A DNA stretch of 35,677 bases. Source: an uncultured Ruminiclostridium sp. Lineage in GTDB: Bacteria > Bacillota > Clostridia > Oscillospirales > Ruminococcaceae. Below are positions 1,062 through 22,509 of this stretch, one piece after another. The DNA lies in contig CANRFO010000023.1 of assembly GCA_947629925.1 (NCBI GenBank), positions 1 to 35,677 on the forward strand. The letters are read 5' to 3'. The position numbers were made by a program, and so were the translations under genes. The notes under the pieces were generated by a model. It was not told the origin of the DNA. It ran no database searches and worked only from the letters and a program-made list of their open reading frames with translations. Position 1 is the stretch's first letter. The number at the start of each line of letters is the position of its first letter.

Positions 1062-1235
1062 ATGGAATATATGTCTTGCGCCGAAGCTGCGGGCAAATGG
1101 GGCATTTCAGAAAGACGGGTACAGAAACTTTGCGAGGGAAACCGCATACCGGGAGTTGTAAAGTTTGGGAACGTGTGGCTGATACCAAAGAATGCGGAAA
1201 AACCGACCGATAAACGAAAGAAAAGTAAATTTTAG
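1062..1235 (+). CDS. Small helix-turn-helix (excisionase/MerR-like) DNA-binding protein
   Basis: This 57-residue protein reads MEYMSCAEAAGKWGISERRV at its start and contains VVKFGNVWLIPKNA later. That is the winged HTH of small Xis/MerR-like proteins carried by clostridial conjugative elements: helix-turn-helix at residues 4-25, a wing around residues 32-42 and a basic tail. The ATG at 1062 is chosen because the GAGAGAGG just upstream fits a ribosome site; the same frame stays open further upstream without a plausible start. It lies directly after a strong promoter and 55 bases before the response-regulator gene, so it is probably co-transcribed. It may act as an element-borne regulator or excision factor, and the sequence cannot decide between these. 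Confidence 0.7.
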   Translation: MEYMSCAEAAGKWGISERRVQKLCEGNRIPGVVKFGNVWLIPKNAEKPTDKRKKSKF

Positions 1236-1290
1236 AATTTCATATTGGTACAACATAGCTATGATATATTATACCGAGGAGGTAGCAGAA

Positions 1291-1959
1291 ATGGCAAAAA
1301 TTATGATTGTTGAAGATAATAAGGGAACCAACAAGGCTATATGCGAGTATATGAAAACAGCCGGACACACACTTGTTTCTGCTTACGACGGAGCAGACGC
1401 ATTGAAACATTTTCGTGAGGACGAATTGGATTTGATCGTCCTTGACATTATGCTTCCGTTAATGTCCGGAATGGCAGTGTTACATGAAATCAGAAAAAGC
1501 AGTAATATTCCCGTAATCATGCTTACAGCTATCGAAGATGAATATACCCAATCTAACAGCTTTGATGAATTAGCTGACGACTATATAACCAAACCTTTTT
1601 CTATGCTTTTATTGGGAAAGAGAATAAATGCTTTGCTTCGCAGGAGCTGCAATAAAGCTGCTTTGAATAAAATACAATTAGGCGGGGTTTGTATAGACTT
1701 TTCCGGCTATACAGCTTTTGACGAGAACGGGAAAATTGATATTACACCGAAAGAGCTTGAAATATTAAAATTGCTAATTGAAAATAAGGGACTGGTATTA
1801 TCGCGCTCTCAGATACTTGATGATATATGGGGTTATGACTGTGCAATTATAGATCGGACAATAGACGCTTATATTCGCAATTTGAGAAAAAAACTGAAGC
1901 TAAATTGCATAACAACCGTCAAGGGAATAGGATATAAATTTGAAGCGGGGGTATTGTAA
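1291..1959 (+). CDS. OmpR/PhoB-family response regulator, VanR-like
   Basis: This 222-residue protein has a receiver domain with acidic pocket E8/D9, phospho-acceptor D52 in LIVLDIMLP, T79 and K101 in ITKPF. A C-terminal winged helix follows, with ITPKELEILKLLIENKG, the DIWGYD segment and TIDAYIRNLRKKL typical of the OmpR/VanR class. The start at 1291 is fixed by GAGGAGG at 1276-1282; an in-frame upstream extension lacks one. The stop abuts the ATG of the histidine kinase, indicating coupled translation. Its likely target is the direct-repeat box at 3119-3138. There is no vanH/A/X, so this is a VanR-type regulator of something else. Confidence 0.9.
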   Translation: MAKIMIVEDNKGTNKAICEYMKTAGHTLVSAYDGADALKHFREDELDLIVLDIMLPLMSGMAVLHEIRKSSNIPVIMLTAIEDEYTQSNSFDELADDYITKPFSMLLLGKRINALLRRSCNKAALNKIQLGGVCIDFSGYTAFDENGKIDITPKELEILKLLIENKGLVLSRSQILDDIWGYDCAIIDRTIDAYIRNLRKKLKLNCITTVKGIGYKFEAGVL

Positions 1960-3078
1960 ATGAAGCTGAAAATATTTCCTAAAGTATTTCTGTTTACATT
2001 CAGCATGATGTTAATAATCACACTTTTTGCACATTGCTTAATATTCTATATTGCCCCTACGCAGAATGTGCTGATTACATCAAATTATGTCACAAATGTT
2101 GGCGCATTGTCTTATTCCGAGGTTGATATGCAACAACTCATTACAAATACAATATTGCAGTCTTTCCCTATTTCATTTTTGGGGTGTTTTGTAATATCTT
2201 TCATATTTTCCTTTTTGTTTTCTAAAAGGCTAACGTCTCCTATTCTTTCGATTGCAAAGACTGTAAAAGAAATGACTGAATTAAATACCAACGCAAAAAT
2301 AAAAATAACTTCAACAGACGAAATAGGATTTTTGGCTAATGATATAAATCAGCTATATCGTTCTCTTATCTCTACCATTCAACATTTAGAGATTGAAAAA
2401 GAAAATGTTAGCAAAGCCGAACAAGAGAAATTAGATTTTTTGCGCATTGCTTCCCATGAACTAAAAACGCCGGTTACGGAGTTAAATGCAACGCTGGAAA
2501 ATATGATACTTGGTATCGGAGAATATGCAGATTATGATGTATATCTTCCAAAATGCAAAGAAGTGGTAGAACAGCTTGGCAAAATGATTAAGGATATATT
2601 GAGTATGTCGCGCTTACATTTAGACGGGGCAAATGATTGTGAGCAAGATATTTCCCTCAAAAAAGTAATATCTGAAATGTGTGAACCATTTAAGTTAATA
2701 GCAGAAACAAAAGCAATACGGTTTGTTGTTATGCTTGAAAATGATATATCGCTTCACATATCAGAACAACTACTAAAAAAGGCACTATCTAATATTCTGC
2801 TTAATGCTGTCAATTATACAGAAGCCGGGAAGAATATAACGGTTTCAATCAGCGGGCAATCGTTATCAGTTATAAATGAATGTACCCCGATACCGCCAGA
2901 ACATTTGAAACATATCTTTGAGCCGTTTTATCGTACAGATTATTCAAGAAATCACGATACAGGCGGCAATGGATTAGGATTATATATTGTAGATACAATT
3001 CTTAAAAAATTAAAATTAAAATATCGGTTTTTTCCTTTAAGCACTAATAACGGAATGTGCTTTACTATTCAATTCTAA
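1960..3078 (+). CDS. Membrane sensor histidine kinase, VanS-like
   Basis: This 372-residue kinase is the partner of the upstream response regulator; its ATG directly follows that gene's stop. Two membrane helices (about residues 8-31 and 68-88) enclose a short extracellular loop of about 36 residues, too small for a large ligand-binding domain. A HAMP-like segment follows. The dimerisation/phosphoacceptor motif is FLRIASHELKTPV with H166, then the N box SNILLNAVNYT (277-287) and the glycine box GGNGLGL (335-341). The short loop suggests sensing within or at the membrane, as in antibiotic or peptide sensors of the VanS/BceS kind; the signal itself is unknown. A terminator follows the gene. Confidence 0.9.
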   Translation: MKLKIFPKVFLFTFSMMLIITLFAHCLIFYIAPTQNVLITSNYVTNVGALSYSEVDMQQLITNTILQSFPISFLGCFVISFIFSFLFSKRLTSPILSIAKTVKEMTELNTNAKIKITSTDEIGFLANDINQLYRSLISTIQHLEIEKENVSKAEQEKLDFLRIASHELKTPVTELNATLENMILGIGEYADYDVYLPKCKEVVEQLGKMIKDILSMSRLHLDGANDCEQDISLKKVISEMCEPFKLIAETKAIRFVVMLENDISLHISEQLLKKALSNILLNAVNYTEAGKNITVSISGQSLSVINECTPIPPEHLKHIFEPFYRTDYSRNHDTGGNGLGLYIVDTILKKLKLKYRFFPLSTNNGMCFTIQF

Positions 3079-3199: not shown

Positions 3200-3226
3200 A
3201 TGTTCAATAAAGGAGGCAGCCTATGA
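3200..3226 (+). CDS. Eight-codon leader ORF overlapping the secreted-protein start
   Basis: After AAGGAGG at 3184-3190, an ATG at 3200 opens the mini-frame MFNKGGSL. It stops at TGA 3224-3226, overlapping the ATG of the next gene in an ATGA arrangement. The ribosome site of the main gene (AAAGGAGG) lies inside this mini-frame, so translation of the leader could couple to or modulate the main gene. Two good ribosome sites in a row are seen directly; function is inferred. Confidence 0.4.
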   Translation: MFNKGGSL

Positions 3227-3828
3227 AAGGCAAAATATTATCGAGTTTGGCCGCATTGCTCTTGGTTAGTGGTAGTTTAACTGGTTTTGCAAGCTCCACT
3301 GATACTCCCAATATCTTTACAGAGCAATCTGCGCCTACGCAGCTATCCACCGTTATGATTAGGCAAGATGAAGATACTTTAACATCAAGCTATGACGGTG
3401 GAAACACATGGAACCCTTTTTCTTATGAGGAAACACATGATTTTTACAGCCATAATGAGTTTTCCTCATGGATCAAGGAACAGGAAGCTGAAATATCAGC
3501 GTTAGTGGAAGCCGGGGAATGGACACAGGAAAACGCTGACGCGGTTATACAGCACTACTATGAACTACTGGAAAGATTAGATGACGGTTTGCTTATAGGA
3601 AAAAGAGAAAGCGACACTGACGACCAGTATTTCGTAAGTTACCCCAATGCTGCTCATACAGAGGGATTTCAGACAGTGATTTGTACCGAAAACGGATATG
3701 AATTTATCGGCACCTATGATACGGAAAAGGAACTGTATGAGGCATTGGAAGCATACACCGAGCTTCAAGTGGAAGCAGGAAACATGACCGCTGATGAAGC
3801 GAAAACAATTTTGAAAAAATATGAATAG
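3223..3828 (+). CDS. Secreted protein of unknown function with one Asp-box motif and a duplicated VEAG motif
   Basis: This 201-residue protein starts with a basic n-region, a hydrophobic core (residues 5-22) and GFASS, a likely signal peptidase I site near residue 24; there is no lipobox Cys. SSYDGGNTW at 55-63 matches the Asp-box S-x-D-x-G-x-T-W of beta-propeller enzymes, but only one copy is present, so no propeller is implied. Two helical segments share a motif: LVEAGEWTQENADAVI (94-109) and QVEAGNMTADEAKTIL (182-197), suggesting internal duplication. It follows a two-component system and an apparent response-regulator box, so it is probably the system's output, perhaps a surface sensor or resistance factor. 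I do not recognise a family. The start is fixed by AAAGGAGG. Confidence 0.8.
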   Translation: MKGKILSSLAALLLVSGSLTGFASSTDTPNIFTEQSAPTQLSTVMIRQDEDTLTSSYDGGNTWNPFSYEETHDFYSHNEFSSWIKEQEAEISALVEAGEWTQENADAVIQHYYELLERLDDGLLIGKRESDTDDQYFVSYPNAAHTEGFQTVICTENGYEFIGTYDTEKELYEALEAYTELQVEAGNMTADEAKTILKKYE

Positions 3829-4345: not shown

Positions 4346-5218
4346 TCAAGCCCGCCGCAGGTCTTCAAGAACAGCCCCGATATCCCCATCAATGCAAATA
4401 CTTTGCGCGGCAATTTCCGTCGGGCAGGCAGCTTCGCCGTAGTTGATACAAGCATATGTCGCCTGCGGATTCTGCGCGGTCATTTGCCAGAACGGGTACT
4501 TGATAATAACAGGCGTGTTGTAGCCGACGCCGAGTTCAAGGTACAGCACCTTGCCCGTGTGGGTTCGGATAAAATCACTGTATCTCGCGGCGGCAGCGTG
4601 CCAGCCCTCGTCCTCGACAAAGCGGTCGTCAGAGCGCAGGTTCATCGTCATCGGCTTGCCGCAGTGCGGGCATTTCGGCAGCAGCTCGGTGGGGATCCGC
4701 ATATCCTTTTGCCGCTCCATCATCTGCCTGATGGTGTCCTCATTGTCAAATGTTTCCTGACAGCAGGGCTGAGAACACTGGAGCAGCCCGTAGTCGCCCT
4801 GGGTGTAGAAAAGCCGCTTTTTATCAACTCCCGATTTTTGAAAGCAGTGATCCACGTTTGTGGTGATCACAAAATAGTCCTTGTCTTTGACTAACGCCAA
4901 CAAATCGCTGTAAACAGGTTTCGGAGGATCTGTATAACGGTTGACGAAGATGTATCTCGACCAATACGCCCAGAATTCTTCATACGTTTTGTATGGATAA
5001 AATCCGCCCGAGTACATATCCGAAAAGCCGTATTTTCGGGCGAAATCGGAGAAATATTTATTGAATCGCTCGCCCGAATAGGTAAAGCCCGCCGAGGTGG
5101 ATAAGCCCGCTCCTGCGCCTATCACGACTGCGTCGGAGGTGTTCAGAAGCTCCTTGAGCCGCTTGATTTTATCGGAGTAATCTTTGATATATCCTACGGT
5201 CATCATCTTTAAAGACAT
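4346..5218 (-). CDS. Class M sirtuin (SirTM), protein ADP-ribosyltransferase
   Basis: This 290-residue protein has the sirtuin NAD-binding motif GAGAGLSTSAGF (34-45), RFNKYFSDFARKYG and DMYSGGFYPY, which mark the SirTM branch. ITTNVD carries N121, and TQGDYG carries Q140 where ordinary sirtuins have the catalytic His; both are SirTM hallmarks. Zinc ligands are C148, C152/C153, C183 and C186. Family knowledge: SirTM proteins of staphylococci and streptococci ADP-ribosylate a lipoylated GcvH-L, are encoded beside a macrodomain, and respond to redox stress. Here the gene overlaps the macrodomain gene by 50 bases and ends an operon with radical SAM, nitroreductase and ferredoxin-type genes. No GcvH-L or lipoate ligase is in the window. 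The start at 5218 is supported by GAGGTGAT; ATGs at 5206 and 5203 are alternatives. Confidence 0.9.
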   Translation of the reverse strand: MSLKMMTVGYIKDYSDKIKRLKELLNTSDAVVIGAGAGLSTSAGFTYSGERFNKYFSDFARKYGFSDMYSGGFYPYKTYEEFWAYWSRYIFVNRYTDPPKPVYSDLLALVKDKDYFVITTNVDHCFQKSGVDKKRLFYTQGDYGLLQCSQPCCQETFDNEDTIRQMMERQKDMRIPTELLPKCPHCGKPMTMNLRSDDRFVEDEGWHAAAARYSDFIRTHTGKVLYLELGVGYNTPVIIKYPFWQMTAQNPQATYACINYGEAACPTEIAAQSICIDGDIGAVLEDLRRA

Positions 5219-5930
5219 TGAATATCACCTCGGTATTTTTCTTAAACTCCTTAACGGTTTTAATCGCAATCTCCGCCGCAAGCTCGTTCGGAAAATGAAA
5301 TTCACCTGTGGAAATGCAGCAGAACGTCACGCTTTTTATACTGTTTTTCTGAGCCAGTTCAAGGCAGGAACGATAGCAGGAAGCGAGCAGTTCACGGTCT
5401 TTATCAGTCACACCGCTGTATACTATGGGTCCGACTGTATGGAGAACATAGTCGCAAGGCAGGTTATAGGCGGGTGTGATCTTTGCCTGACCTGTCGGTT
5501 CCTCATGTCCTTGCTTTTCCATCATTTCGGCGCAGGCAAGCCGAAGCTGTACCCCCGCAAAAGTGTGGATCGCATTGTCGATACAGCCGTGACAGGGTGC
5601 ATAACAGCCTGTCATACCGCTGTTGGCGGCGTTGACGATCGCCCCGCATTTCAGGGTGGTGATGTCGCCCTGCCAGAGATATATTCCATCTGCAACGGGT
5701 GATAATACATCAATATTCGTTATCCCCTTAGCGGCGGTCAAAGCCTGCAAATAATCATCTTGAACCGAAAGGAAATCTTCGCTTACAGCCTGCGCAGGAC
5801 GGACATTTACAAGCGAACGAAACAGCTTGAACCGCTCCGATTCGCTTTGTGGAATCGTGATTGTGCGGTACTCGTTACGCTCCGAAATAAGATAATTTAT
5901 CAAAAAATCAAGTCGCTCCGATTGTGTCAT
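5169..5930 (-). CDS. Zinc-dependent macrodomain, ADP-ribosyl hydrolase
   Basis: This 253-residue protein has an N-terminal helical region of about 85 residues and then a macrodomain: LWQGDITTLKCGAIVNAANS (85-104), the Zn-macro signature GCYAPCHGCIDNAIH (108-122) with probable ligands C109, H114 and C116, HTVGPIV (164-170) and ISTGEFHFP (206-214). Family knowledge: Zn-macro proteins remove ADP-ribose installed by the SirTM usually encoded next to them. The gene follows the ferredoxin-fusion gene by two bases, with its ribosome site inside that gene, and overlaps the sirtuin gene. Writer and eraser should therefore be made together. All key residues appear intact. Confidence 0.92.
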   Translation of the reverse strand: MTQSERLDFLINYLISERNEYRTITIPQSESERFKLFRSLVNVRPAQAVSEDFLSVQDDYLQALTAAKGITNIDVLSPVADGIYLWQGDITTLKCGAIVNAANSGMTGCYAPCHGCIDNAIHTFAGVQLRLACAEMMEKQGHEEPTGQAKITPAYNLPCDYVLHTVGPIVYSGVTDKDRELLASCYRSCLELAQKNSIKSVTFCCISTGEFHFPNELAAEIAIKTVKEFKKNTEVIFNVFKDDDRRIYQRLLR

Positions 5931-5932
5931 AT

Positions 5933-6550
5933 TTACCTCTTTTCTACCGCTCCGACAGGGCAGACTGCAAGACAGTTTCCGCAGTGCAGGCAGTTCTCCT
6001 GCTTAATTATAGCACGCCTTGCGGAAAAGTCAATGCAGCTTTGAGGGCAATTTTTCAGGCACTTACCGCAACCGATACATTTTTCGGAAAAGACGTATCC
6101 TTTTTGCGTGAGATTTCCCGCGCCGATGGTGTAGCTTTCCCGAAAAATCGGGTTGACGCCTAAGTTGAAATACTCGATTTCCGCGTCCTTGATCTCAAAA
6201 ACGATTCCCGCCAGTTTTCGCGTGTTGCCGGGATAGACGTTCGAGAGATAGGGCTGCTCCTCAAAAATCGTGTCTATCCACTTCTCCTGTTCATTCTCGC
6301 AAACGGGAACCGCCTTTGCTGACAGGCGTATCATCTCTTTATACCTGGTATATCCCAACACCTGCACGCGTCCGTCGGTCAGAAGCTCCTCGCAAAAGGC
6401 CTTTCCTTTTGCGGTGAAAAAGATCATTTTGTCAGGCTCATAGTGGATCGCGGAAATATTGCGTATTTGCGGCGCGCCGTTTTTGTCCACTGTGGCGAAA
6501 GCCAGCACGCCGACATATTCTAATTTTTTCAGACAGGTTTGTGCGTCCAT
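5933..6550 (-). CDS. PNPOx-like flavin-fold protein fused to a 2[4Fe-4S] ferredoxin domain
   Basis: This is 205 residues. The first 130 or so form a pyridoxamine-5-phosphate-oxidase-like split barrel (LAFATVDKNGAPQIRNISAI, MIFFTAKGKAFCEELL). The C-terminal part carries two cluster motifs, CIGCGKCLKNCP and CLHCGNCLAVCP. The fusion suggests electron transfer between a flavin and iron-sulfur clusters. In this operon it could reduce the radical SAM enzyme or act on the modified peptide, with the nitroreductase as a flavin partner; this is inference. It starts nine bases after the nitroreductase stop and is followed two bases later by the macrodomain gene, so it is translationally tied to both. 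Localisation is cytoplasmic, with no signal or membrane segment. Confidence 0.88.
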   Translation of the reverse strand: MDAQTCLKKLEYVGVLAFATVDKNGAPQIRNISAIHYEPDKMIFFTAKGKAFCEELLTDGRVQVLGYTRYKEMIRLSAKAVPVCENEQEKWIDTIFEEQPYLSNVYPGNTRKLAGIVFEIKDAEIEYFNLGVNPIFRESYTIGAGNLTQKGYVFSEKCIGCGKCLKNCPQSCIDFSARRAIIKQENCLHCGNCLAVCPVGAVEKR

Positions 6551-6559
6551 TTTTACACC

Positions 6560-7138
6560 TCATTCTATGATTTTGCTTCGCTGTGATTTTCTCGGCTTTT
6601 CTTTCGGGTATTCCCCATCGCAATACCCCAAAAGCACAAAGCAGCGGGCAATATAGTTTTCGGGAATACCCCACTCCTGCAAAAGCTCCGCACCGAGGTC
6701 GCCCTCAAACGTTTCCTCGCCCCTTGCGACTATGCAGGAGGAAATGCCGAGCTTCGTAGCCATCAGCACCATATTTTCGGCGCAGCAAAAGGCGTCGGGG
6801 ATACTGTAAAGAAAATTTTTCACCGCAAAAACAATGCAGACTGCGGGCGCGCCATAGAACCCGCCTTTAATTGTCGGGTCGTCGATAATGCTGGGCTGGT
6901 CAGCTGAAACATAGCTCCCCGACAGCTTTGAGCGGTCGAATTTAACGACGTTCAGCCTGCCGATCTTCTCCGCAAGCTCCGCGTTATGTACGCCGACAAT
7001 AATGCTCCGCTGACCGCCTCCTGCGCTCGGCGCGTAAGTCCCCGCCTCGATGATTTTTTCCATATCCTCGCGGGGGATCTGCCTGCGCTGATATTTTCGG
7101 ATAGAGCGGCGGTATTTCATAAGCTCCAGAAGCTCCAT
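6560..7138 (-). CDS. Nitroreductase-family flavoprotein
   Basis: This 192-residue protein has FMN contacts in RRSIRKY (9-15) and APSAGGGQ (36-43), GAPAVCIVFA in the middle, and ISSCIVARGEE and VLLGYCDGEYP in the second half, as in small NADH/ferredoxin-type nitroreductases. The start at 7138 is chosen because its ATG overlaps the radical SAM stop (TAATG), a standard coupling arrangement; the longer frame to 7225 would run deep into that gene. The substrate is unknown. Position between the maturase and the ferredoxin fusion suggests a redox role in peptide maturation or in a linked stress pathway. Its GC content is above that of the flanking core genes. Confidence 0.88.
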   Translation of the reverse strand: MELLELMKYRRSIRKYQRRQIPREDMEKIIEAGTYAPSAGGGQRSIIVGVHNAELAEKIGRLNVVKFDRSKLSGSYVSADQPSIIDDPTIKGGFYGAPAVCIVFAVKNFLYSIPDAFCCAENMVLMATKLGISSCIVARGEETFEGDLGAELLQEWGIPENYIARCFVLLGYCDGEYPKEKPRKSQRSKIIE

Positions 7139-8169
7139 TATTCCACCTCTTTCCAGCACTGCGGGTCGGCGGCATAAAAGTCGCCGTACGTCCCCTTTGC
7201 AACGGCAGGACAGCCACGACACCATGCCTTTAATTCACATTTACTGCATTTGACGAATTTGTCATACTCCCTATACTGCTCCATTTCACACACCCAGACG
7301 TCGGCAAGGCGGTCAGTGAACACGTTCCCGATCCTGCTGTCAGCAACCCGACGGCAGGCGTACACGTCGCCTGTCGGCAAAATCGTGATATGGCAGTTCC
7401 CGCAGTTGCACCCGCCGTAGATCATGTCCTCTTTCGCTTCCTCGGGGATCTTGAAAGCTCCTGTTTCGTATTCGTAAAGCGTCCAGAGGTGGTCTTTTCT
7501 GTTGAAACAGGTTTGGCAGCCTGCCGCCTCATACTCCTTGAATTTCTTATCGCAGATCTCAAGCAGCTCGCGGTATTCCTGCGGCGTCATTGAAGCGTCC
7601 AGTTCGCCGCCGCTTGGTACATACCGAGAAAAGGCGAATACGTTTGCTCCCGCCGCTACCACTGTATCAATAATTTCGGGGACTTCCAAGCGATTTGTTT
7701 TCGACACCGTCGTCATAACCACGCTTCGCATTCCCGAGCGGTTGATACAGCCGATTTTTTCAATCGTGCAGTCGAACGAGCCCGCTTTGCGAAACCAGTC
7801 GTGAGTGTCGCGAAGTCCGTCGATCGAGAGCTGATATTTCTCGCAGCCGTATGACCTGAGCTTTTTGCACACCTCGTCGTCAAGGTGAAACGGATTGCCC
7901 ATAACCGTAAACGGGATATTGTGTTTTTTGAAGAGCGCCAAAAGCCGCCGGAAATCCGTATGTAAAATCGGGTCGCCGCCTGTCAGGTAGAAGGGCAGGC
8001 GGTCATAGACCTCACAAAAATCAAGACAGTTATAGAATGTGTCTTCTATCTGAGCCCAGCTCATTGAATCAGGCTTTTTGCGCAGGTCACCTGAGAAGAT
8101 ATAACAGTGCTTGCGCCTTTGGTCGCACTCGTCGGTGATGTGCCACTGAAAAGAAAAATACTGTTTCAT
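7138..8169 (-). CDS. Radical SAM/SPASM peptide maturase, ACGX-system type, with an altered cluster motif
   Basis: This is 343 residues. The N-terminal radical SAM domain starts QWHITDECDQRRKHCYIF, has GGDP (64-67) in the GGE position and LSIDG on the fifth strand. The C-terminal SPASM domain has GGCNCGNCHITILPTGDVYAC, then CSKCELKAWCRGC and a final C near the end, enough Cys for auxiliary [4Fe-4S] clusters. Radical SAM enzymes need CxxxCxxC; here it reads C15-D-Q-R-R19-K-H-C22, so the middle Cys is Arg (CGC at 8115-8113, one transition from TGC). All else looks intact. From memory this matches the family annotated as the ACGX-system radical SAM/SPASM protein. It lies 93 bases after the precursor gene; ribosome site ACGAGG. 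It may be inactive, a sequencing error, or a real variant. Confidence 0.9.
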   Translation of the reverse strand: MKQYFSFQWHITDECDQRRKHCYIFSGDLRKKPDSMSWAQIEDTFYNCLDFCEVYDRLPFYLTGGDPILHTDFRRLLALFKKHNIPFTVMGNPFHLDDEVCKKLRSYGCEKYQLSIDGLRDTHDWFRKAGSFDCTIEKIGCINRSGMRSVVMTTVSKTNRLEVPEIIDTVVAAGANVFAFSRYVPSGGELDASMTPQEYRELLEICDKKFKEYEAAGCQTCFNRKDHLWTLYEYETGAFKIPEEAKEDMIYGGCNCGNCHITILPTGDVYACRRVADSRIGNVFTDRLADVWVCEMEQYREYDKFVKCSKCELKAWCRGCPAVAKGTYGDFYAADPQCWKEVE

Positions 8170-8191
8170 GTTTTCCTCGTTTTATATTAAA

Positions 8192-8204
8192 TCGGCTGCG
8201 CCGA
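8192..8204 (-). other. Small hairpin between precursor and maturase genes
   Basis: TCGGC and GCCGA enclose the loop TGC, followed on the minus strand by TTTAATATAAAA. It lies in the 93-base gap between the peptide gene and its maturase. Such gaps in RiPP operons often hold a leaky attenuator or processing site that lets the precursor outnumber the enzyme. The stem is short (5 bp), so this is tentative. Confidence 0.3.
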
Positions 8205-8262
8205 ATAATAATCGTGGTTCCCGACGGGATCGCTCCCACCGAGAACGGTTTGGAACGGATGG

Positions 8263-8478
8263 TTACTTATTGTCGCCGGCGCCACAGGCAGTTCCGCAAG
8301 CAGCAGGTTTTTCTTCCGACTTATCGGCAGCTCCGCAGGCGGCAGGAGCTTCGGCGGGCTTGTCGGACGCACCGCAGGCGGCAGGCTTTTCCTCCTTAGT
8401 GTCGGCAGCTCCGCAGGCTGTTCCACATGAAGAAGCCGTCTTTTCCTCGTTCCATTCGGCAAGATTTGAAAGTGCCAT
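8263..8478 (-). CDS. ACGX-repeat peptide, probable radical SAM (RiPP) precursor
   Basis: This 71-residue peptide has a leader-like N-terminus, MALSNLAEWNEEKTA, then six Cys-Gly units: C18, C22, C35, C48, C61, C65. The spacings are 4-13-13-13-4, a mirror-symmetric pattern, with core units (S/A)-C-G-(T/A) separated by charged Ala/Lys/Glu/Pro linkers such as DKSEEKPA. From memory this matches the ACGX-repeat peptides paired with a dedicated radical SAM/SPASM enzyme. The strong AAAGGAGG nine bases before the ATG points to high expression. It is the first gene of the operon, read from the divergent promoter region shared with the HxlR regulator. Composition (Ala, Lys, Glu, Pro, Cys) is strongly biased. 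The mature product and its modification are unknown. The longer overlapping frame at 8187-8462 is a shadow. Confidence 0.85.
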   Translation of the reverse strand: MALSNLAEWNEEKTASSCGTACGAADTKEEKPAACGASDKPAEAPAACGAADKSEEKPAACGTACGAGDNK

Positions 8479-8526
8479 GATCGTTTCCTCCTTTACGGGA
8501 TTCGGGATTTTGCCCCCGTAATTATT

Positions 8527-8581
8527 ATTTTACATGTTTTTCAAAACCGCACAAGTACGCACTTTATTGTGAGATACGCAC
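8527..8581 (-). promoter_or_regulatory. Promoter of the peptide operon with TACGCAC direct repeats
   Basis: On the minus strand TTGTGC (8554-8549) and TAAAAT (8532-8527) are 16 bases apart. Just upstream, TACGCAC (plus-strand sense) occurs at 8556-8562 and 8575-8581, 19 bases apart, overlapping and preceding the -35. That is a likely regulator-binding site, possibly for the divergent HxlR protein. The -35 is weak, which would suit an activated promoter. Confidence 0.5.
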
Positions 8582-8633
8582 CTTTTTGTAACTTTTGCGT
8601 GATTGCGGGCTTTATAAAGAAAATTTTTTTGCC

Positions 8634-8664
8634 TGTTGCATTTTCGGAAATGTTGCAGTATAAT
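8634..8664 (+). promoter_or_regulatory. Promoter of the HxlR regulator gene with TGTTGCA repeats
   Basis: TTGCAT (8636-8641) and TATAAT (8659-8664) are 17 bases apart. TGTTGCA occurs twice, at 8634-8640 and 8651-8657, so one copy covers the -35 and the other abuts the -10. This layout fits autorepression by a dimeric regulator. Confidence 0.7.
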
Positions 8665-8704
8665 ATGAGTGTAACATTCTTTTTTGAAGTAACGGAGGTG
8701 CCAT

Positions 8705-9034
8705 ATGAAAACAAAAGCCGAGCTATTGCCCGAGTGTCCTGTTGCGACGACCGTTCAGCTAATCGGAAACAAGTGGAAGCTTCTTATCATACGCAACCTG
8801 TCTGCTCGCTCGTGGCGATTTAACGAGCTTCAGCGGGATCTGGACGGAATCAGCCAAAAGGTACTCACAGACAGCCTGCGCTCTATGGAAGCGGACGGGA
8901 TCATCACCCGCACCGTCTATGCCGAAGTCCCGCCGAGGGTGGAATATGCCCTGTCGGAGCTGGGCGAGAGCTTAAAACCGATACTTGAAGCGATGAGGGT
9001 GTGGGGAGAGATGTATAAGAAAGAAAAAGAGTAA
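8705..9034 (+). CDS. HxlR-family (MarR-like) winged-helix regulator, possible thiol sensor
   Basis: This 109-residue protein has ECPVATTVQLIGNKWKLLII (10-29), FNELQRDLDGISQKVLTDSL and the wing YAEVPPRVEYALSELG, the HxlR/YodB/HypR pattern. C11 is in the conserved N-terminal position; in YodB and HypR the corresponding Cys senses quinones, diamide or hypochlorite. No other Cys is present, so sensing would need an intersubunit or mixed disulfide. It is divergently transcribed from the peptide operon across a 226-base region with repeat boxes, and so probably regulates that operon in response to electrophile or thiol stress. The ribosome site GGAGG is well placed. It is followed by a strong terminator. 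Confidence 0.9.
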   Translation: MKTKAELLPECPVATTVQLIGNKWKLLIIRNLSARSWRFNELQRDLDGISQKVLTDSLRSMEADGIITRTVYAEVPPRVEYALSELGESLKPILEAMRVWGEMYKKEKE

Positions 9035-9038
9035 ACAA

Positions 9039-9070
9039 ATCGGGGCTTTGCAAGAAAGTCCCGATTTTTT
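9039..9070 (+). terminator. Rho-independent terminator after the HxlR gene
   Basis: AATCGGGGCTTT pairs with AAAGTCCCGATT (one mismatch), with a 5-base loop and a T run, starting four bases after the stop codon. Confidence 0.9.
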
Positions 9071-9543
9071 AAATATTGGTGATAGTAAAATAACCCGCCC
9101 AAACCCGCATAATGCAGAAAAGGGCGGTTTTGGATTTCTGATCACTCCGCACTGCTTATGTTTTTGTCATGTTTTATGCGGGGTGTCATTTGACAATTTG
9201 TATATCGCAAATCATGTAAATCAAAATGTTTCAGTAGAAAGTAGTTGCCAATAGAAACAAATCCGTTTCGCTCAGCTTTCAGCATAGTTATATTTGATGA
9301 AAAACGCGCCGTTCCTTATGGAAAAGCAGAGAGCTATGTCATATTTGAATAAAACAACAATTGATTTATACATAAAAAGAGCAGTTACCGCAATTAAACG
9401 ATGCTGCTCTTTTCTTTTTTACATCAACCGACGATTGCCTTAAACATTTGGGTGAAAACTTCTTTGTGGATAGCTCACTTTGGGAAACGCCTTTATTTAT
9501 CTTCACCATGAAATAATAAAGAAATAATCTTTTCATATATCTA
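9071..9543. other. Intergenic junction between the GC-richer island and the core operon
   Basis: No gene is supported. There is an imperfect hairpin AACCCGCCC/GGGCGGTTT at 9092-9129. A short frame from TTG 9245 to 9352 encodes 35 residues ending AVPYGKAESYVIFE; it reads like the tail of a lost protein but has no recognised family. A terminator is listed separately at 9374-9420. Composition drops from GC-richer to AT-rich here. Confidence 0.35.
9374..9420. terminator. Bidirectional-looking terminator in the island/core junction
   Basis: AAAAGAGCAG (9375-9384) pairs perfectly with CTGCTCTTTT (9404-9413), followed by a T-rich tail. No intact gene lies immediately upstream, which supports the idea that a gene has been lost from 9245-9352 or thereabouts. 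Confidence 0.75.
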
Positions 9544-9572
9544 TTGAAATATTTATAAAAATATGGTATAAT
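9544..9572 (+). promoter_or_regulatory. Strong SigA promoter of the Ddl-like/argS operon
   Basis: TTGAAA (9544-9549) and TATAAT (9567-9572) are exactly 17 bases apart, in a very AT-rich setting. The start codon is 34 bases further on. Confidence 0.88.
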
Positions 9573-9605
9573 TTTTTATCAATATTTTATATGAGGAGCA
9601 GACAA

Positions 9606-10673
9606 ATGGCTAAAATCAAAGTTGCTGTTTTGTTTGGCGGGCAGACAAAAGATCATGCAGTTTCACTCCGTTCGGCATATTCGGTGATAAAAACTTTGTC
9701 TGAGGGAAATTATGAGGTTATTCCCATTGGAATTACCCGTGCAGGACGATGGCTATATTATCCCGGAAATTATGATTCCATAACAGACGGAAGCTGGGAG
9801 AACGATTCTGACTGTTGTCCTGCGGTTATCAGTCCTGACGCTGTTCATCACGGAGTAATAAAGCTTATAGACGGCGACAGTCTAGCGCTTCAGCGTATTG
9901 ATGTTATTTTTTCATTACTTCACGGGAAATTCGGCGAATGCGGAAGGATACAAAGCTTATGTAAACTTGCCGGCATTCCCTTCTTAGGCAGCAATCCCGA
10001 ATCATCAAATACCGCTTTGGATAAAGCTATGACTCATCTTGTTCTTGATGAAGCGGGAATAAAGACGATAAATTATTTTTGCGTAGAGCGTTCAGATATG
10101 CCTGATATTGACTTGATAATTCAGCAGCATAAAAATTCAATACATTATCCCATGTTTGTAAAAGCGTCAAGCTGCAGCTCTTCTATTGGTTTAAACATCG
10201 CATTTGATCAAAATGAACTTAAATCCGCATTGAAAATGGCTTTCTCTCATCATCATAAGGCTGTTGTTGAAGATGCGTTGTCAGGACGAAATATATGCTG
10301 CTGTGTTTATGAAAATGAAGGTCTTGTCGCAGTTACGGGAATAGGCGAAATCGTAAAACTTAACAGTGCAATTGATGACCTGAACAATTACATAAGCAAA
10401 ACATCAAGCTTTGAATGTCCTGCTGATATACATGAATTATTGGTAAAGGAAATACAGAATACGGCAATACGTGCTTTCAGGGTAATGAACTGTCAAGGAT
10501 TTGCGGTTATAGATTTTCTGCTTAATGAAGATAATTATTATTGCACAAATGTTGCTACTGTTCCGGGATTTACGGAAGAAAGCATAATAAGTCGACTTAT
10601 GGCAGCAGATGGGATATCATACTCGGAAATGCTGAACATAATGCTTAACAATGCTTTGGAATCAAAGGTATGA
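9606..10673 (+). CDS. D-alanine-D-alanine ligase-like ATP-grasp protein, probably catalytically altered
   Basis: This 355-residue protein has overall Ddl architecture: LFGGQTKDHAVSLRSAYSVI (9-28), LLHGKFGECGRIQSLCKLAG (104-123), GSNPESSNTALDKAM, an ATP-grasp lysine in MFVKASSCSSSIG, and VATVPGFTEES. Compared with E. coli DdlB, E15 is D16, R255 is V301, and the metal ligands E270 and N272 are N315 and A317 (TNVATVPG instead of NEINTxPG); only D257 remains (D303). This looks like a paralogue with weakened or lost ligase activity, or with a different substrate. The ATG at 9606 is preferred over 9591 because AGGAG (9594-9598) then sits at the right distance. It heads an operon with DUF1934, argS and others. 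Confidence 0.82.
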   Translation: MAKIKVAVLFGGQTKDHAVSLRSAYSVIKTLSEGNYEVIPIGITRAGRWLYYPGNYDSITDGSWENDSDCCPAVISPDAVHHGVIKLIDGDSLALQRIDVIFSLLHGKFGECGRIQSLCKLAGIPFLGSNPESSNTALDKAMTHLVLDEAGIKTINYFCVERSDMPDIDLIIQQHKNSIHYPMFVKASSCSSSIGLNIAFDQNELKSALKMAFSHHHKAVVEDALSGRNICCCVYENEGLVAVTGIGEIVKLNSAIDDLNNYISKTSSFECPADIHELLVKEIQNTAIRAFRVMNCQGFAVIDFLLNEDNYYCTNVATVPGFTEESIISRLMAADGISYSEMLNIMLNNALESKV

Positions 10674-18901: not shown

Positions 18902-19699
18902 TTAACTGCATTTTGCAAGTATTTCAACACATTTTGCAGGACACGCTTCGGCACATATTCCACAGCCTACACACTTGTTGTAATCTATTTCAGCATGATT
19001 ATTATTGATCGTAACAGCACCTTGAGGGCATTTTTTTGTGCATATTCCGCAGCCTATGCAGCCGTTCTTGCATGCTGCACGTGTTATTTTTCCTATATCC
19101 TGTGATGAGCAGCGTACTGCAACAGTAGAAGATATTTTTCTGAGTGAAATAAGATGGTTAGGACATGTTTTGACGCACTTGCCGCAACCGCCGCATTTAT
19201 GAGGATTTACTACTGCGACTCCGTTTACGATCTCAATAGCGTCATTATCGCATACGGATATGCAATCTCCAAATCCGATACAGCCAAATGAGCAGTTTCC
19301 TTTTCCGTTATAAAATTTTTCAGCAGCTATACAACGTTTTGAACCGACGTAAATGTATTTATCCTCAGTTGCTCCCTGACAACCGTTACAATGTACATAT
19401 GCAACAAGAGGTTCAGCTTCTTCGACAGCTACTCCGAGAATGCTGCTTATTTTTTTATTCACTTCAAGTCCGCCGGGAGAACATTGATTTGGTTTTGCTT
19501 CACCTTTTGCTATGGCTTCAGCGTAAGCCTCACAGCCTGCAAAACCACAGCCGCCGCAATTTGCCCCGGGAAGTGCGTCAATTATCTTTTCAACGGTTTC
19601 GTCTGTTTCCACAAAAAAGAGTTTGCCTGCTATCGTAAGCAATCCCCCGGCCACAGCACCGATGATAAGAAAAAACAATATGCTTAATACGATCTCCAT
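18902..19699 (-). CDS. rnfB: Rnf complex subunit RnfB, multi-cluster ferredoxin subunit
   Basis: This is 265 residues: one N-terminal membrane helix, the [4Fe-4S] domain ANCGGCGFAGCEAYAEAIA (46-64), a central CxxC region, and several ferredoxin motifs: CGGCGKCVKTCP, CIGCGICTKKCP and CVGCGICAEACP. RnfB is the likely entry point for electrons from reduced ferredoxin in the membrane ferredoxin:NAD+ oxidoreductase. It is last in the rnfCDGEAB order typical of Clostridia and is followed closely by the GGDEF gene. Confidence 0.96.
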   Translation of the reverse strand: MEIVLSILFFLIIGAVAGGLLTIAGKLFFVETDETVEKIIDALPGANCGGCGFAGCEAYAEAIAKGEAKPNQCSPGGLEVNKKISSILGVAVEEAEPLVAYVHCNGCQGATEDKYIYVGSKRCIAAEKFYNGKGNCSFGCIGFGDCISVCDNDAIEIVNGVAVVNPHKCGGCGKCVKTCPNHLISLRKISSTVAVRCSSQDIGKITRAACKNGCIGCGICTKKCPQGAVTINNNHAEIDYNKCVGCGICAEACPAKCVEILAKCS

Positions 19700-19700
19700 T

Positions 19701-20303
19701 TTATCCTCCGAAAATATTATCTACTATACCGCCAAAGCCGATGAATGCAAGAGAAACGATCGACGCCGCCATAAGAGTTATGGGAGTTCCCTGTAAAGCC
19801 TTCGGTATATTGCAGCGTTCGATCCTGCCTCTGACTCCTGAAAAAATAAGCATTACGAGCAAGAATCCTATTCCTGCGCTTAAAGCGTTTACAATAGAAT
19901 CGCCGAAATTATATTCATTGTCTATATTAAGTATAGTGACACCCAAAACCGCACAGTTAGTAGTAATAAGAGGCAGATATACGCCGAGAGCTTTATAAAG
20001 CGGAGGTATATATTTTTTCATAGCCATCTCTACAAGCTGAACAAGCAGCGCAATAATAAGAATAAACGCCACTGTCTGCATATATTCGATCTTAAGCGGT
20101 ACAAGTACGCCGTAATATATCGGATATGTAGCTACGGTAGCAAATACCATTACGAATGTTACGGCAATTCCCATTCCGAGAGAGCTTTTTGTCTGCTTTG
20201 AGACTCCTAGAAACGGACAAATGCCCAGAAATTTACTGAGTACAAAGTTTTCAGTTAGAATGCCTGTCAATAAAATTACAACAACATTTTTGAAAATATC
20301 CAT
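19701..20303 (-). CDS. rnfA: Rnf complex membrane subunit RnfA
   Basis: This is 200 residues with six membrane helices. LLTGILTENFVLSKFLGICP (16-35) and the inverted homologous half ending GIGFLLVMLIFSGVRGRIER match RnfA, with the conserved Cys residues (C29, and C117 in TTNCAVLGV) that hold the intramembrane [2Fe-2S] cluster with RnfE. It is one base from rnfB. Confidence 0.96.
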   Translation of the reverse strand: MDIFKNVVVILLTGILTENFVLSKFLGICPFLGVSKQTKSSLGMGIAVTFVMVFATVATYPIYYGVLVPLKIEYMQTVAFILIIALLVQLVEMAMKKYIPPLYKALGVYLPLITTNCAVLGVTILNIDNEYNFGDSIVNALSAGIGFLLVMLIFSGVRGRIERCNIPKALQGTPITLMAASIVSLAFIGFGGIVDNIFGG

Positions 20304-20329
20304 TATATCAACAAACTCCTATTAAGTAA

Positions 20330-21001
20330 TTATGCTTTTTCATCAGCCGCCTCATCAGGCGCAAATTTGCATGCTTCCCTGTTTGGGCATGATGTACATG
20401 TGATGTCCTTCGGTTTTCTTTTGGTTATTTTTCCTACAATAGCTATTATAACACCAAGGGAGAAAAATCCGCCTGCGGGTAGGATGAATATTGTCATGGG
20501 TTCAATAATGTCAGGCATAAGCTGAATACCAAACCATGTTCCTGAACCCAATATTTCTCTGAATGAACCGACAACAAGCAAAGAAAGAGTAAAACCTATG
20601 CCCATTCCGAGTCCATCGAGGATAGACGGTATGACCTTGTTTTTGCAGGCAAACATCTCTGCTCTTCCCAAAATAATGCAATTTACTGTAATCAAACTGA
20701 GAAAGAGCCCTAAAGCGTCATACAATGACGGGATAAATTTCTGCAACAGCATACCTACCAATGTAACAAACCCTGAAATGATAACAATAAAGCTTGGCAG
20801 TCGAACCTGCGGAGGAATAACTTTCTTCAAAAGTGAGATCGCCATATTTGAACATACAAGAACAAATGTGGTGGCAAGGCCCATTCCCAAACCGTTTTCT
20901 GCCATGGTAGTAACAGCGAGGGTAGGACACATACCGAGAAGCATTACTAAATTCGGATTTTCTTTAAGTATGCCTTTGGTAAATTCATTTAAATAACTCA
21001 T
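20330..21001 (-). CDS. rnfE: Rnf complex membrane subunit RnfE
   Basis: This 223-residue protein begins MSYLNEFTKGILKENP, has LLGMCPTLAVTTMAENGLGM and LITVNCIILGRAEMFACKN, the RnfE/NqrD pattern with two conserved Cys facing RnfA, and at least six membrane helices. The C-terminus has an extra Cys pair in CTSCPNREACKF. The start at 21001 is preferred over the longer frame to 21058 because GGGGAGG lies seven bases upstream. Confidence 0.95.
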   Translation of the reverse strand: MSYLNEFTKGILKENPNLVMLLGMCPTLAVTTMAENGLGMGLATTFVLVCSNMAISLLKKVIPPQVRLPSFIVIISGFVTLVGMLLQKFIPSLYDALGLFLSLITVNCIILGRAEMFACKNKVIPSILDGLGMGIGFTLSLLVVGSFREILGSGTWFGIQLMPDIIEPMTIFILPAGGFFSLGVIIAIVGKITKRKPKDITCTSCPNREACKFAPDEAADEKA

Positions 21002-21017
21002 AATAATGCCTCCCCTC

Positions 21018-21584
21018 TTAATTCTGTATGCCCAGTTCAGGATAAACCGATAAAGCAATATTTATCGCTTCTGTAACACCTGTTGAAGAATATGTTGCAC
21101 CTGTTACTGCCTGAACTTCATTATCAGCAGACGGTGCATGCTTCACAAGTTCAACTTCTTCTGTTTTTCCCGAATACTGAAGCAGAAAATCTTTGTTTTG
21201 AACCTTTGTACCCAATCCCGGAGTTTCGCCGAGCGAAACAACGCTTATTGCTTTTATGCTTCCGTCACCATTCATTGTGATAAGAACGTCAATTCCTTTT
21301 TTTGAATATCCGTTGGTAATTATTTCAAATGAAATCGTTCCATCGGATTTTTTTATCATCTTTTCAATATTTTCAGGCTTATCTATTGCATATCCTTCCG
21401 CTTTCCAATCGCTGACGATTTCAAACTCTCCTTCACCCATTGCTTCAATACAAGCGGACATAAGCTTATCTGTTATCATATTTGAAGTATCAACATATGT
21501 AAATGCATGTGTAACTATAAGAAGAAGTGAAATGATAGTAGTAATTGCAGTAAGCACTATAACAGGCTTTAATTTGTTGATCAT
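21018..21584 (-). CDS. rnfG: Rnf complex flavoprotein subunit RnfG
   Basis: This is 188 residues with one N-terminal membrane helix and an FMN-binding domain facing outside. VTGATYSSTGVTEAI carries the SGAT-like motif whose Thr receives covalent FMN, and SLGETPGLGTKVQNKDF matches the family. The start ATG overlaps the rnfD stop (ATGA), so translation is coupled. Confidence 0.95.
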   Translation of the reverse strand: MINKLKPVIVLTAITTIISLLLIVTHAFTYVDTSNMITDKLMSACIEAMGEGEFEIVSDWKAEGYAIDKPENIEKMIKKSDGTISFEIITNGYSKKGIDVLITMNGDGSIKAISVVSLGETPGLGTKVQNKDFLLQYSGKTEEVELVKHAPSADNEVQAVTGATYSSTGVTEAINIALSVYPELGIQN

Positions 21585-22507
21585 TTGCTTACCTCCTTTT
21601 TGGCGCCAAACGGATGTGTGACAGTCAGTTTATCAATAAAAGGAGTAATTATATTCATTATAAGTATTGAATATGAAACGCCTTCAGGCATTGTTCCGAA
21701 GTTTCTTATAAGAAATGTAAGCAATCCGCACCCTATTGCAAAAATAACTTTTCCGAAAGTTGTTATAGGTGTTGTAGCATAATCGGTCGCCATGAAAAAT
21801 GCTCCTAAAATAAGACCTCCTGATAAAACCTGAACAGTAACATCTCCGCCGAAGGCAAATGTCAACAAGGCAACCGTACCTATATAAGCTATCGGAGTAA
21901 TGGGATTTATTATCCTCATCACAATAAGATATAGTCCGCCAAGCAAAAGCGCAGCGGTACAACATTCACCAATACAGCCGGATCTTGCAAAAAACAACTC
22001 AAATAAACCCGGTGTTTCTTCTGCTACAAGAGGAGTAGCCGTAGAAACGGCATCAGCCGACATGGTATAATAAAAAGGCTTGACCCATGTAGTCATATAG
22101 GAAGTAAAAGAAAGCATAAGAATAATTCGCGCTGTAATAGCAGGGTTTGCAAAATTCTGCCCTATACCTCCGAAGAAATTCTTTACAAATACTATGGCGA
22201 TCACGCTTCCGATTATTGCCATATAAAGCGGAATTGTAGGAGGCAGGTTAAACGCAAGCAAAATGCCTGTAACAACAGCGGAAAGATCATTTATCGTTCT
22301 TGGGCGTTTCGTGATTTTTTCAAACAAAAGTTCGGAAACAACACATATTGACGAACAAATAACGACTACCAATAGAGCCCTGAGCCCGTATATAACAGTA
22401 GACGCAACAACTGCAGGCATAAGTGATATAATAACATGAAGCATTATTTTTTGCGTGGTTATTTTGCTCTTTATATGGGGAGCGGGTTCAATAAGATAAC
22501 TATTCAT
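21581..22507 (-). CDS. rnfD: Rnf complex membrane flavoprotein subunit RnfD
   Basis: This is 308 residues with about nine membrane helices. It has APHIKSKITTQKIMLHVI, FFGGIGQNFANPAITARIIL and DAVSTATPLV, where the Thr of (S)-T/G-A-T-P is the covalent FMN site; the usual Gly is Thr here (STATP), a mild substitution. YATTPITTFGKVIFAIGCG is in the C-terminal half. It forms the ion channel core with RnfA and RnfE. It lies two bases after rnfC. Confidence 0.95.
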   Translation of the reverse strand: MNSYLIEPAPHIKSKITTQKIMLHVIISLMPAVVASTVIYGLRALLVVVICSSICVVSELLFEKITKRPRTINDLSAVVTGILLAFNLPPTIPLYMAIIGSVIAIVFVKNFFGGIGQNFANPAITARIILMLSFTSYMTTWVKPFYYTMSADAVSTATPLVAEETPGLFELFFARSGCIGECCTAALLLGGLYLIVMRIINPITPIAYIGTVALLTFAFGGDVTVQVLSGGLILGAFFMATDYATTPITTFGKVIFAIGCGLLTFLIRNFGTMPEGVSYSILIMNIITPFIDKLTVTHPFGAKKEVSK

Positions 22508-22509
22508 TT

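Follow-up and report, generated by a model that had tools for sequence, protein, structure and literature searches.

The window analysed here, that is, the whole 35,677 bases of contig C23 (CANRFO010000023.1) from a 2.37 Mb genome that is 99.75% complete, carries a string of minus-strand genes in which an ACGX-type peptide (AcgA) and its radical SAM/SPASM maturase (AcgM) are followed by a nitroreductase, a PNPOx-ferredoxin fusion protein, a Zn-dependent macrodomain protein (Zn-macro) and a class M sirtuin (SirTM), with an HxlR-type regulator encoded divergently upstream (Table 1). All six packed genes that an earlier note on this DNA had read from the letters were recovered in place, with family models backing their identities. 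Its proposal that the ACGX cassette and SirTM/Zn-macro form one operon was likewise borne out, and the arrangement is conserved, recurring across many Clostridia. We consider it highly probable that the operon is real, conserved, linked to HxlR and independent of lipoyl.

Table 1. Features of the operon region, with positions given within the window.
Feature	Positions	Strand	Evidence
SirTM (class M sirtuin, ADP-ribosyltransferase type)	4346-5218	-	5a3a match, E 7.6e-75
Zn-dependent macrodomain, protein-ADP-ribose hydrolase	5169-5930	-	NF003163, 363.8 bits
Fusion of a PNPOx-like flavin domain with a ferredoxin domain for two [4Fe-4S] clusters	5933-6550	-	PF01243, Fer4 families
Nitroreductase-family flavoprotein	6560-7138	-	PF00881, E 4.5e-21
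acgM, ACGX-type radical SAM/SPASM maturase	7138-8169	-	TIGR04340, 566 bits
acgA-acgM spacer, strong predicted RNA stem-loop	8170-8262	-	Minimum free energy -28.6 kcal/mol
acgA, ACGX-repeat peptide, 71 aa	8263-8478	-	TIGR04341, 68.1 bits
Predicted two-part HxlR operator AGTTACAAAAAGGTGCGTA...AAAGTGCGTACTTG	8552-8593	-	Conserved site between HxlR and acgA
Divergent HxlR/DUF24-type regulator	8705-9034	+	PF01638, 109.9 bits (cut-off 20.8)

The SirTM and Zn-macro genes overlap by 50 bases, and those for the nitroreductase and AcgM by 1 base; the remaining gaps are 2 bases from Zn-macro to PNPOx-ferredoxin, 9 bases from there to the nitroreductase and 93 bases from acgM to acgA. An Rfam scan of the window returned zero RNA families at gathering scores, and the signals in a promoter/terminator scan were no higher than in shuffles.

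Linkage of the two halves was assessed around relatives of the maturase, of which the best 80 of 333 loci were kept; many of these are titled 'Lapin', which we read as rabbit-gut metagenome-assembled genomes, and some of the bin labels are doubtful. With 22 loci set aside for having less than 3 kb of room after the maturase, SirTM and/or Zn-macro was found within 7 kb of the maturase in 46 of the remaining 58 loci, and both genes were found in 41. Counted over all 80 loci, both genes were present in 45, one in 12 and none in 23, the last group often being cut by contig ends. A maturase over the cut-off occurred in 16 of 391 genomes of a class-wide sample and was linked to SirTM/Zn-macro in 13 of the 16. 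The exceptions were G036 and G529, where it is unlinked, and G563, where the locus is cut by a contig end; the maturase of G419, which at 308 bits falls short of the cut-off, was also unlinked. An order-wide sample of 245 genomes contained 9 with the maturase over the cut-off, 48 with SirTM (E <= 1e-30) and 45 with Zn-macro (E <= 1e-60); G191, whose maturase match is a fragment of 220 bits at the edge of a contig, was counted as maturase-less. SirTM was present in 8/9 of the maturase genomes versus 40/236 of the others (Fisher p 1e-5, relatedness ignored). Both genes were linked to the maturase in G000, G067, G031 and G161, and Zn-macro was linked in G076; in G094 the linkage probably spans a contig break, in G036 and G098 the pair lies elsewhere, and G151, whose maturase lies at a contig end, was without a SirTM match. 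Taken together, 46 of 58 loci and 13 of 16 genomes rule out chance adjacency of the two halves. The co-occurrence survey suggested in the earlier note was thus positive when started from the ACGX half and negative in reverse, since most SirTM/Zn-macro pairs in this order occur without ACGX. The relation is one-sided, because of the 45 order-sample genomes with Zn-macro only 5 or 6 have an ACGX maturase next to it.

The active-site motifs of SirTM and Zn-macro are, as judged from protein alignments restricted to sequences whose length is 0.85 to 1.6 times that of the window protein (some near-copies included), intact. Residues 17-280 of the 290 in SirTM align with 5a3a, a SIR2 family protein that we take to be the Streptococcus pyogenes SirTM, and the score against the SIR2 model PF02146 is 21.4 bits, under the cut-off of 24. 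The canonical sirtuin His is replaced by Gln140, a residue found in 102/102 aligned rows. The protein thereby shows the class M features, being of Sir2 type, near SpySirTM, with Gln for the catalytic His and a gene linked to a Zn-macrodomain. Zn-macro exceeds the cut-off of 272 bits for the NF003163 protein-ADP-ribose hydrolase model and matches the structures 8rsi (E 6.3e-78) and 5kiv (E 2.9e-74). Its catalytic-loop residues C109, H114 and C116, presumably the Zn ligands, as read from the alignment to these structures, are kept in 101/101 rows, which places the protein in the Zn-Macro class.

AcgA belongs to the target_ACGX family (TIGR04341, cut-off 28 bits), and each of its six Cys residues stands in a Cys-Gly unit. 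Among 95 AcgA relatives, which include some copies and a few peptides truncated at contig ends, Gly follows Cys at 604 of 616 cysteines, the intervals between cysteines are 13 or 4 residues in 478 of 521 cases, and the median net charge is -3. The predicted stem-loop in the spacer upstream of acgM has a z score of -2.09, with 7 of 200 shuffles folding equally well, and may be an attenuator, which would yield more peptide than enzyme. An export or killing role for AcgA was considered and rejected: no transporter or peptidase was recognised in the span from acgA to SirTM, within a crude clustering of open reading frames of which only some clusters were scanned with profile models. ABC-transporter ATPases (cluster c17, named by eye) lie outside that span, in 7 of 80 loci and at scattered positions.

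The window maturase scores well above the cut-off of 400 bits for its family (rSAM_ACGX, TIGR04340) and is thus a member of it, yet the intact CX3CX2C motif for the [4Fe-4S] cluster, by which radical SAM enzymes are recognised, is lost: it reads C-x3-R-x2-C, with Arg19 in place of the second Cys, a change that the first reading had overlooked. Of 224 aligned rows (120 database proteins and 104 sequences from the loci and the window, L122 among them as a distant paralogue), 222 have Cys at this position, and Arg occurs only in the window and in the identical database protein P0001. The latter represents 3 sequences from 4 contigs and may be an independent observation or the same assembly deposited twice. 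The window protein further shows a one-residue deletion before GGDP, matched only by P0001 and by a gap in L122, as well as the substitution W74R at a position that is Trp in 219/224 rows. The closest relatives, P0002-P0004 (96-97% identity), are intact at these sites, and the same check on SirTM, Zn-macro, PNPOx-ferredoxin, the nitroreductase and HxlR gave one such departure in total (Zn-macro residue 202). Because radical SAM chemistry requires the second Cys of CX3CX2C, the window copy of AcgM, judged by its sequence, is probably inactive; AcgA is therefore predicted to stay unmodified there, and the window would be a poor site for studying the peptide chemistry. Relaxed selection on this copy was considered and set aside, as its share of nonsynonymous changes is only mildly raised (15 nonsynonymous and 27 synonymous changes on its own lineage versus 7 and 23 for L003). 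Consequently, the loss would be recent.

A reductase gene starts within 400 bases past acgM in 73 of 78 loci, encoding a nitroreductase in 57 and an MDR quinone-reductase-like protein in 16; in the remaining 5, PNPOx-ferredoxin follows acgM in two and none of these genes does in three. Each of the eight cluster Cys residues of PNPOx-ferredoxin is conserved in 90 to 93 of the 93 aligned rows. About 10 kb from the operon, at 18902-23796 of the window, lie genes whose translations look by eye like an Rnf-type ferredoxin:NAD oxidoreductase (RnfB-like to RnfC-like); they are a possible source of reduced ferredoxin. Further genes recur on the operon strand, namely those for DUF5131, radical SAM mobile pair B, DUF1848, a ferredoxin-nitroreductase fusion and the small protein c31. 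Beside Zn-macro/SirTM, three families seem to alternate: TIGR04470 radical SAM mobile pair B (e.g. L038, L042, L119), PF07505 DUF5131 (e.g. L027, L031, L046, L051, L057, L115) and PF08902 DUF1848 (e.g. L039, L071, L072, L116, L125, L176). These three may be alternative partners of SirTM/Zn-macro.

The view that a thiol-sensor-like HxlR accompanies the operon, also taken from the earlier note, gained support from the regulator and from its predicted binding site. Cys11 is invariant (110/110 rows), as expected for DUF24/HxlR proteins with an N-terminal Cys, and this regulator is the sole member of its family found in the source genome at E <= 1e-10. Where upstream room allowed, a divergent HxlR gene was present in 60 of 61 ACGX loci and the peptide in 57 of 61. 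The predicted operator core GTGCGTACTT, with one mismatch allowed, was found in 88/93 ACGX loci and is shared by 13/19 SirTM/Zn-macro loci without maturase, with copies of some loci included in both counts; the means in dinucleotide shuffles were 0.2 and 0.1, respectively. The source genome holds the exact operator 14-mer once, at this operon, and has one site with a single mismatch, which falls within a coding gene that looks OppA-like by eye. The idea that HxlR governs a wider regulon there was accordingly rejected. The association with SirTM extends beyond ACGX: in 8/10 hand-picked SirTM genomes, SirTM has an HxlR gene no more than 5 kb away and, by a systematic count over SirTM/Zn-macro loci without maturase with 3.5 kb of upstream sequence present, a divergent HxlR gene lies within 4 kb in 13/27.

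A study of 2024 names GcvH-L as the only known SirTM target, reports that the Zn-Macro from a lone SirTM/Zn-Macro pair could not act on GcvH-L, and treats what SirTM/Zn-Macro act on beyond the lipoyl operon as an open question (PMC11490716). In the 16 linked genomes, among which G076 is partly linked and the linkage of G094 is inferred, neither a lipoate ligase (PF21948, the LplA/LipB catalytic fold) nor a GcvH match above 100 bits, and no full-length GcvH, was found. By comparison, PF21948 was present in 11 of 34 genomes that have SirTM but no linked maturase (p 0.0099, relatedness ignored), these 34 being the ones searched out of the 40 in the order sample that have SirTM and no maturase over the cut-off; none of the 11 ligases lies on the SirTM contig. 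Among all 21 ACGX-maturase genomes searched, PF21948 and GcvH above 100 bits occurred only in G098 and G529, in both of which the maturase is not beside SirTM. In G000, matches to PF01597 and PF21948 were both absent, and the locus is thus not an extended (lipoyl) SirTM operon. All 16 linked genomes thus lack the known route for lipoylating GcvH-L, which is therefore a very unlikely target there. With the only published SirTM target unavailable in these genomes, the peptide or its partner flavoprotein becomes a candidate new target.

The history of the operon was followed in quick trees with SH-aLRT support only, from which L145, L146, L148 and L152 were dropped for long branches and L155, L167-L172, L174 and L175 as copies of other loci. 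On the SirTM tree (90 rows), the ACGX label requires 14 changes, at least 7 of them forced by well-supported branches, versus 26.6 in shuffles; on the Zn-macro tree it requires 19, at least 4 of them forced. The forced changes indicate that the modules were joined or separated several times. Agreement between distance matrices is highest for Zn-macro/SirTM (r 0.77, n 49), and maturase distances correlate with those of PNPOx-ferredoxin at r 0.62 (n 68), Zn-macro at 0.59 (n 53) and the nitroreductase at 0.21 (n 64). The operon apparently moves horizontally, which fits with the presence of the maturase in 1 of 6 sampled congeners and with two bacterial plasmid records that carry the operon. The archaeal Methanosphaera plasmid pNP174 (L182) encodes an ACGX-type maturase of 57.6% identity at 7140-10024, annotated in two pieces, together with a gene resembling HxlR and one for a zinc-binding dehydrogenase; a SirTM match was absent in the 17 kb read. 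Short contigs with the operon or part of it, titled Prevotella (L071) and Succinivibrio (L078), suggest binning errors or recent transfer. Past the 3' end of the operon in the window, on the opposite strand, lie a two-component system (1192-3078) and then a gene whose small product matches DUF2680 below the cut-off (3223-3828).

We tentatively favour a reading in which SirTM and Zn-macro gate the matured peptide by ADP-ribosylation within an HxlR-linked redox operon, because the parallel with the known SirTM operon is close in parts. Thiol or electrophile stress would alter HxlR through Cys11 and thereby open the promoters, and AcgM would modify the Cys-Gly units of AcgA. The modified thiol array could then serve as an electron or electrophile carrier together with the nitroreductase (or MDR quinone reductase) and PNPOx-ferredoxin. 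SirTM would mono-ADP-ribosylate matured AcgA at Cys or at Asp/Glu residues next to the Cys units, parking the peptide, and Zn-macro would free it again, as for lipoyl-GcvH-L in Lactobacillales and Staphylococcaceae. A more specific form, in which the radical-SAM-matured Cys-Gly array undergoes reversible S-ADP-ribosylation with SirTM as writer and Zn-macro as eraser, appears unlikely to us; Zn-Macros are described as the only known hydrolases cleaving Cys-S-ADP-ribose (PMC11490716). If true, it would amount to a lipoyl-free, ADP-ribose-gated thiol carrier and to the first ribosomally synthesized and post-translationally modified peptide (RiPP) controlled by ADP-ribosylation.

Several observations weigh against gating of the peptide. 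SirTM and Zn-macro are both missing nearby in 12 of 58 ACGX loci. L115 and L126 have no ACGX gene, and there HxlR, with the same operator, immediately adjoins Zn-macro-SirTM; in L140 it is directly beside Zn-macro with SirTM 1.5 kb further on, also with no ACGX gene; and L116 keeps HxlR, Zn-macro and SirTM, with the peptide gene truncated and the maturase missing. Such operons without the peptide mean that AcgA cannot be the only target. Moreover, two linked genomes gave short partial matches to PF01597 (29.1 bits in G490 and 22.2 in G346, at a cut-off of 22.2); a third, G523, gave one of 21.3 bits, under the cut-off. Finally, maturase distances track HxlR (r 0.63, n 80) slightly better than SirTM (r 0.52, n 56).

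Part of this evidence also fits a shared regulon, in which peptide maturation and SirTM/Zn-macro would be separate, co-transcribed and non-interacting outputs of one HxlR switch: HxlR and its operator stay constant whether ACGX is present or absent, and ACGX loci without the pair exist, as do pairs without ACGX. However, the two halves were joined or parted repeatedly, the window holds the genes in one tight overlapping string, and SirTM is far commoner in ACGX-maturase genomes than in others, so that we regard a mere shared switch as possible and, on balance, somewhat improbable. Alternatively, SirTM/Zn-macro could act on PNPOx-ferredoxin, a redox partner that ACGX operons have in common with many SirTM operons lacking ACGX, or on its reductase partner, with the peptide served separately by that electron chain. 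PNPOx-ferredoxin lies near acgM in 42 of 46 ACGX loci with SirTM/Zn-macro, and of 27 SirTM/Zn-macro loci lacking the maturase, 10 have a relative of 34-68% identity no more than 4 kb upstream of Zn-macro. Yet it is equally frequent in ACGX loci without the pair (11/12), so that it is no obligatory companion of SirTM/Zn-macro inside ACGX loci, and the pair occurs without it in 4 of 46 ACGX loci (L039, L052, L067, L072) as well as in the operons L115 and L126. We hold this target assignment to be unlikely. That AcgA is instead a cytosolic buffer of metal or thiophilic stress, carrying for example thiooxazole-like Cys derivatives, with SirTM/Zn-macro incidental, is very unlikely: the second-best NCBIfam match of AcgM is the thio(seleno)oxazole maturase SbtM, the Cys register of AcgA is strict, and bufferins bind copper through Cys-derived thiooxazoles, but the SbtM score of 136.7 bits against a cut-off of 350 marks distant kinship rather than membership, metal genes were not recognised among the recurrent in-span clusters (within the crude, partly scanned clustering), and bufferin precursors carry Sec signals, of which none was seen by eye in AcgA (bufferin properties from PMC12452194).

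Gating of the matured peptide thus remains our preferred, if provisional, interpretation. If true, the orphan ACGX peptides would gain a cellular role, and RiPP chemistry would be tied to NAD+-based signalling in anaerobic gut bacteria. The operon offers two or three concrete candidates for a SirTM/Zn-Macro target where the known one seems impossible, and the strain genomes of Roseburia sp. 831b and Butyrivibrio sp. INlla14 (locus L072) provide experimental starting points. The earlier note was aware of no described system with this combination, and this held in a literature search that left subscription papers mostly outside its scope: among the papers listed, it found no work joining ACGX or SirTM with radical SAM, and no description of SirTM/macrodomain with RiPP, nitroreductase, HxlR or DUF1848 partners. 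The papers listed for SbtM used that name in unrelated senses. The peptide and maturase fall over the cut-offs of the same families as the NCBIfam ACGX system (TIGR04340/TIGR04341; RefSeq acgM/acgA), whose labels, in contrast to the present operon, are silent on ADP-ribosylation, HxlR control and redox partners; the window maturase differs further in being without a cluster Cys. A plasmid of Roseburia sp. 831b has the same gene order, annotated without comment as acgA-acgM-nitroreductase-4Fe4S protein-protein-ADP-ribose hydrolase-Sir2.

With regard to regulation, the operon resembles the YodB, CatR and HypR regulons of Bacillus subtilis in its DUF24/HxlR family, the conserved N-terminal Cys and the control of a nitroreductase-type enzyme; such B. 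subtilis regulators sense quinones, diamide or HOCl (PMC6943732). Unlike those regulons, the set described here, for which thiol sensing is a prediction, adds a RiPP-type peptide and ADP-ribosylation genes. It shares its two ADP-ribosylation enzymes with the lone SirTM/Zn-Macro pairs, and differs from them (PMC11490716) in that the enzymes lie inside an HxlR redox operon with candidate targets. The closest comparison is with the extended SirTM operon of Lactobacillales and Staphylococcaceae, which comprises GcvH-L, LplA2, Zn-Macro, SirTM, OYE and LLM (PMC4518038, PMC11490716). Both sets combine adjacent Zn-macro/SirTM genes, a small sulfur-bearing carrier candidate, a dedicated modifier and two flavin-type oxidoreductases in a redox-stress setting, and by analogy the present operon may, with due reserve, be a lipoyl-free counterpart. 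In this comparison, AcgA would correspond to GcvH-L, AcgM to LplA2, and the nitroreductase together with PNPOx-ferredoxin to OYE and LLM. Unlike that operon, the one described here contains no GcvH-L or LplA; a ribosomal peptide of Cys-Gly repeats is the candidate carrier and a radical SAM enzyme its modifier, the oxidoreductases are a nitroreductase and PNPOx-ferredoxin, and the regulator is HxlR.

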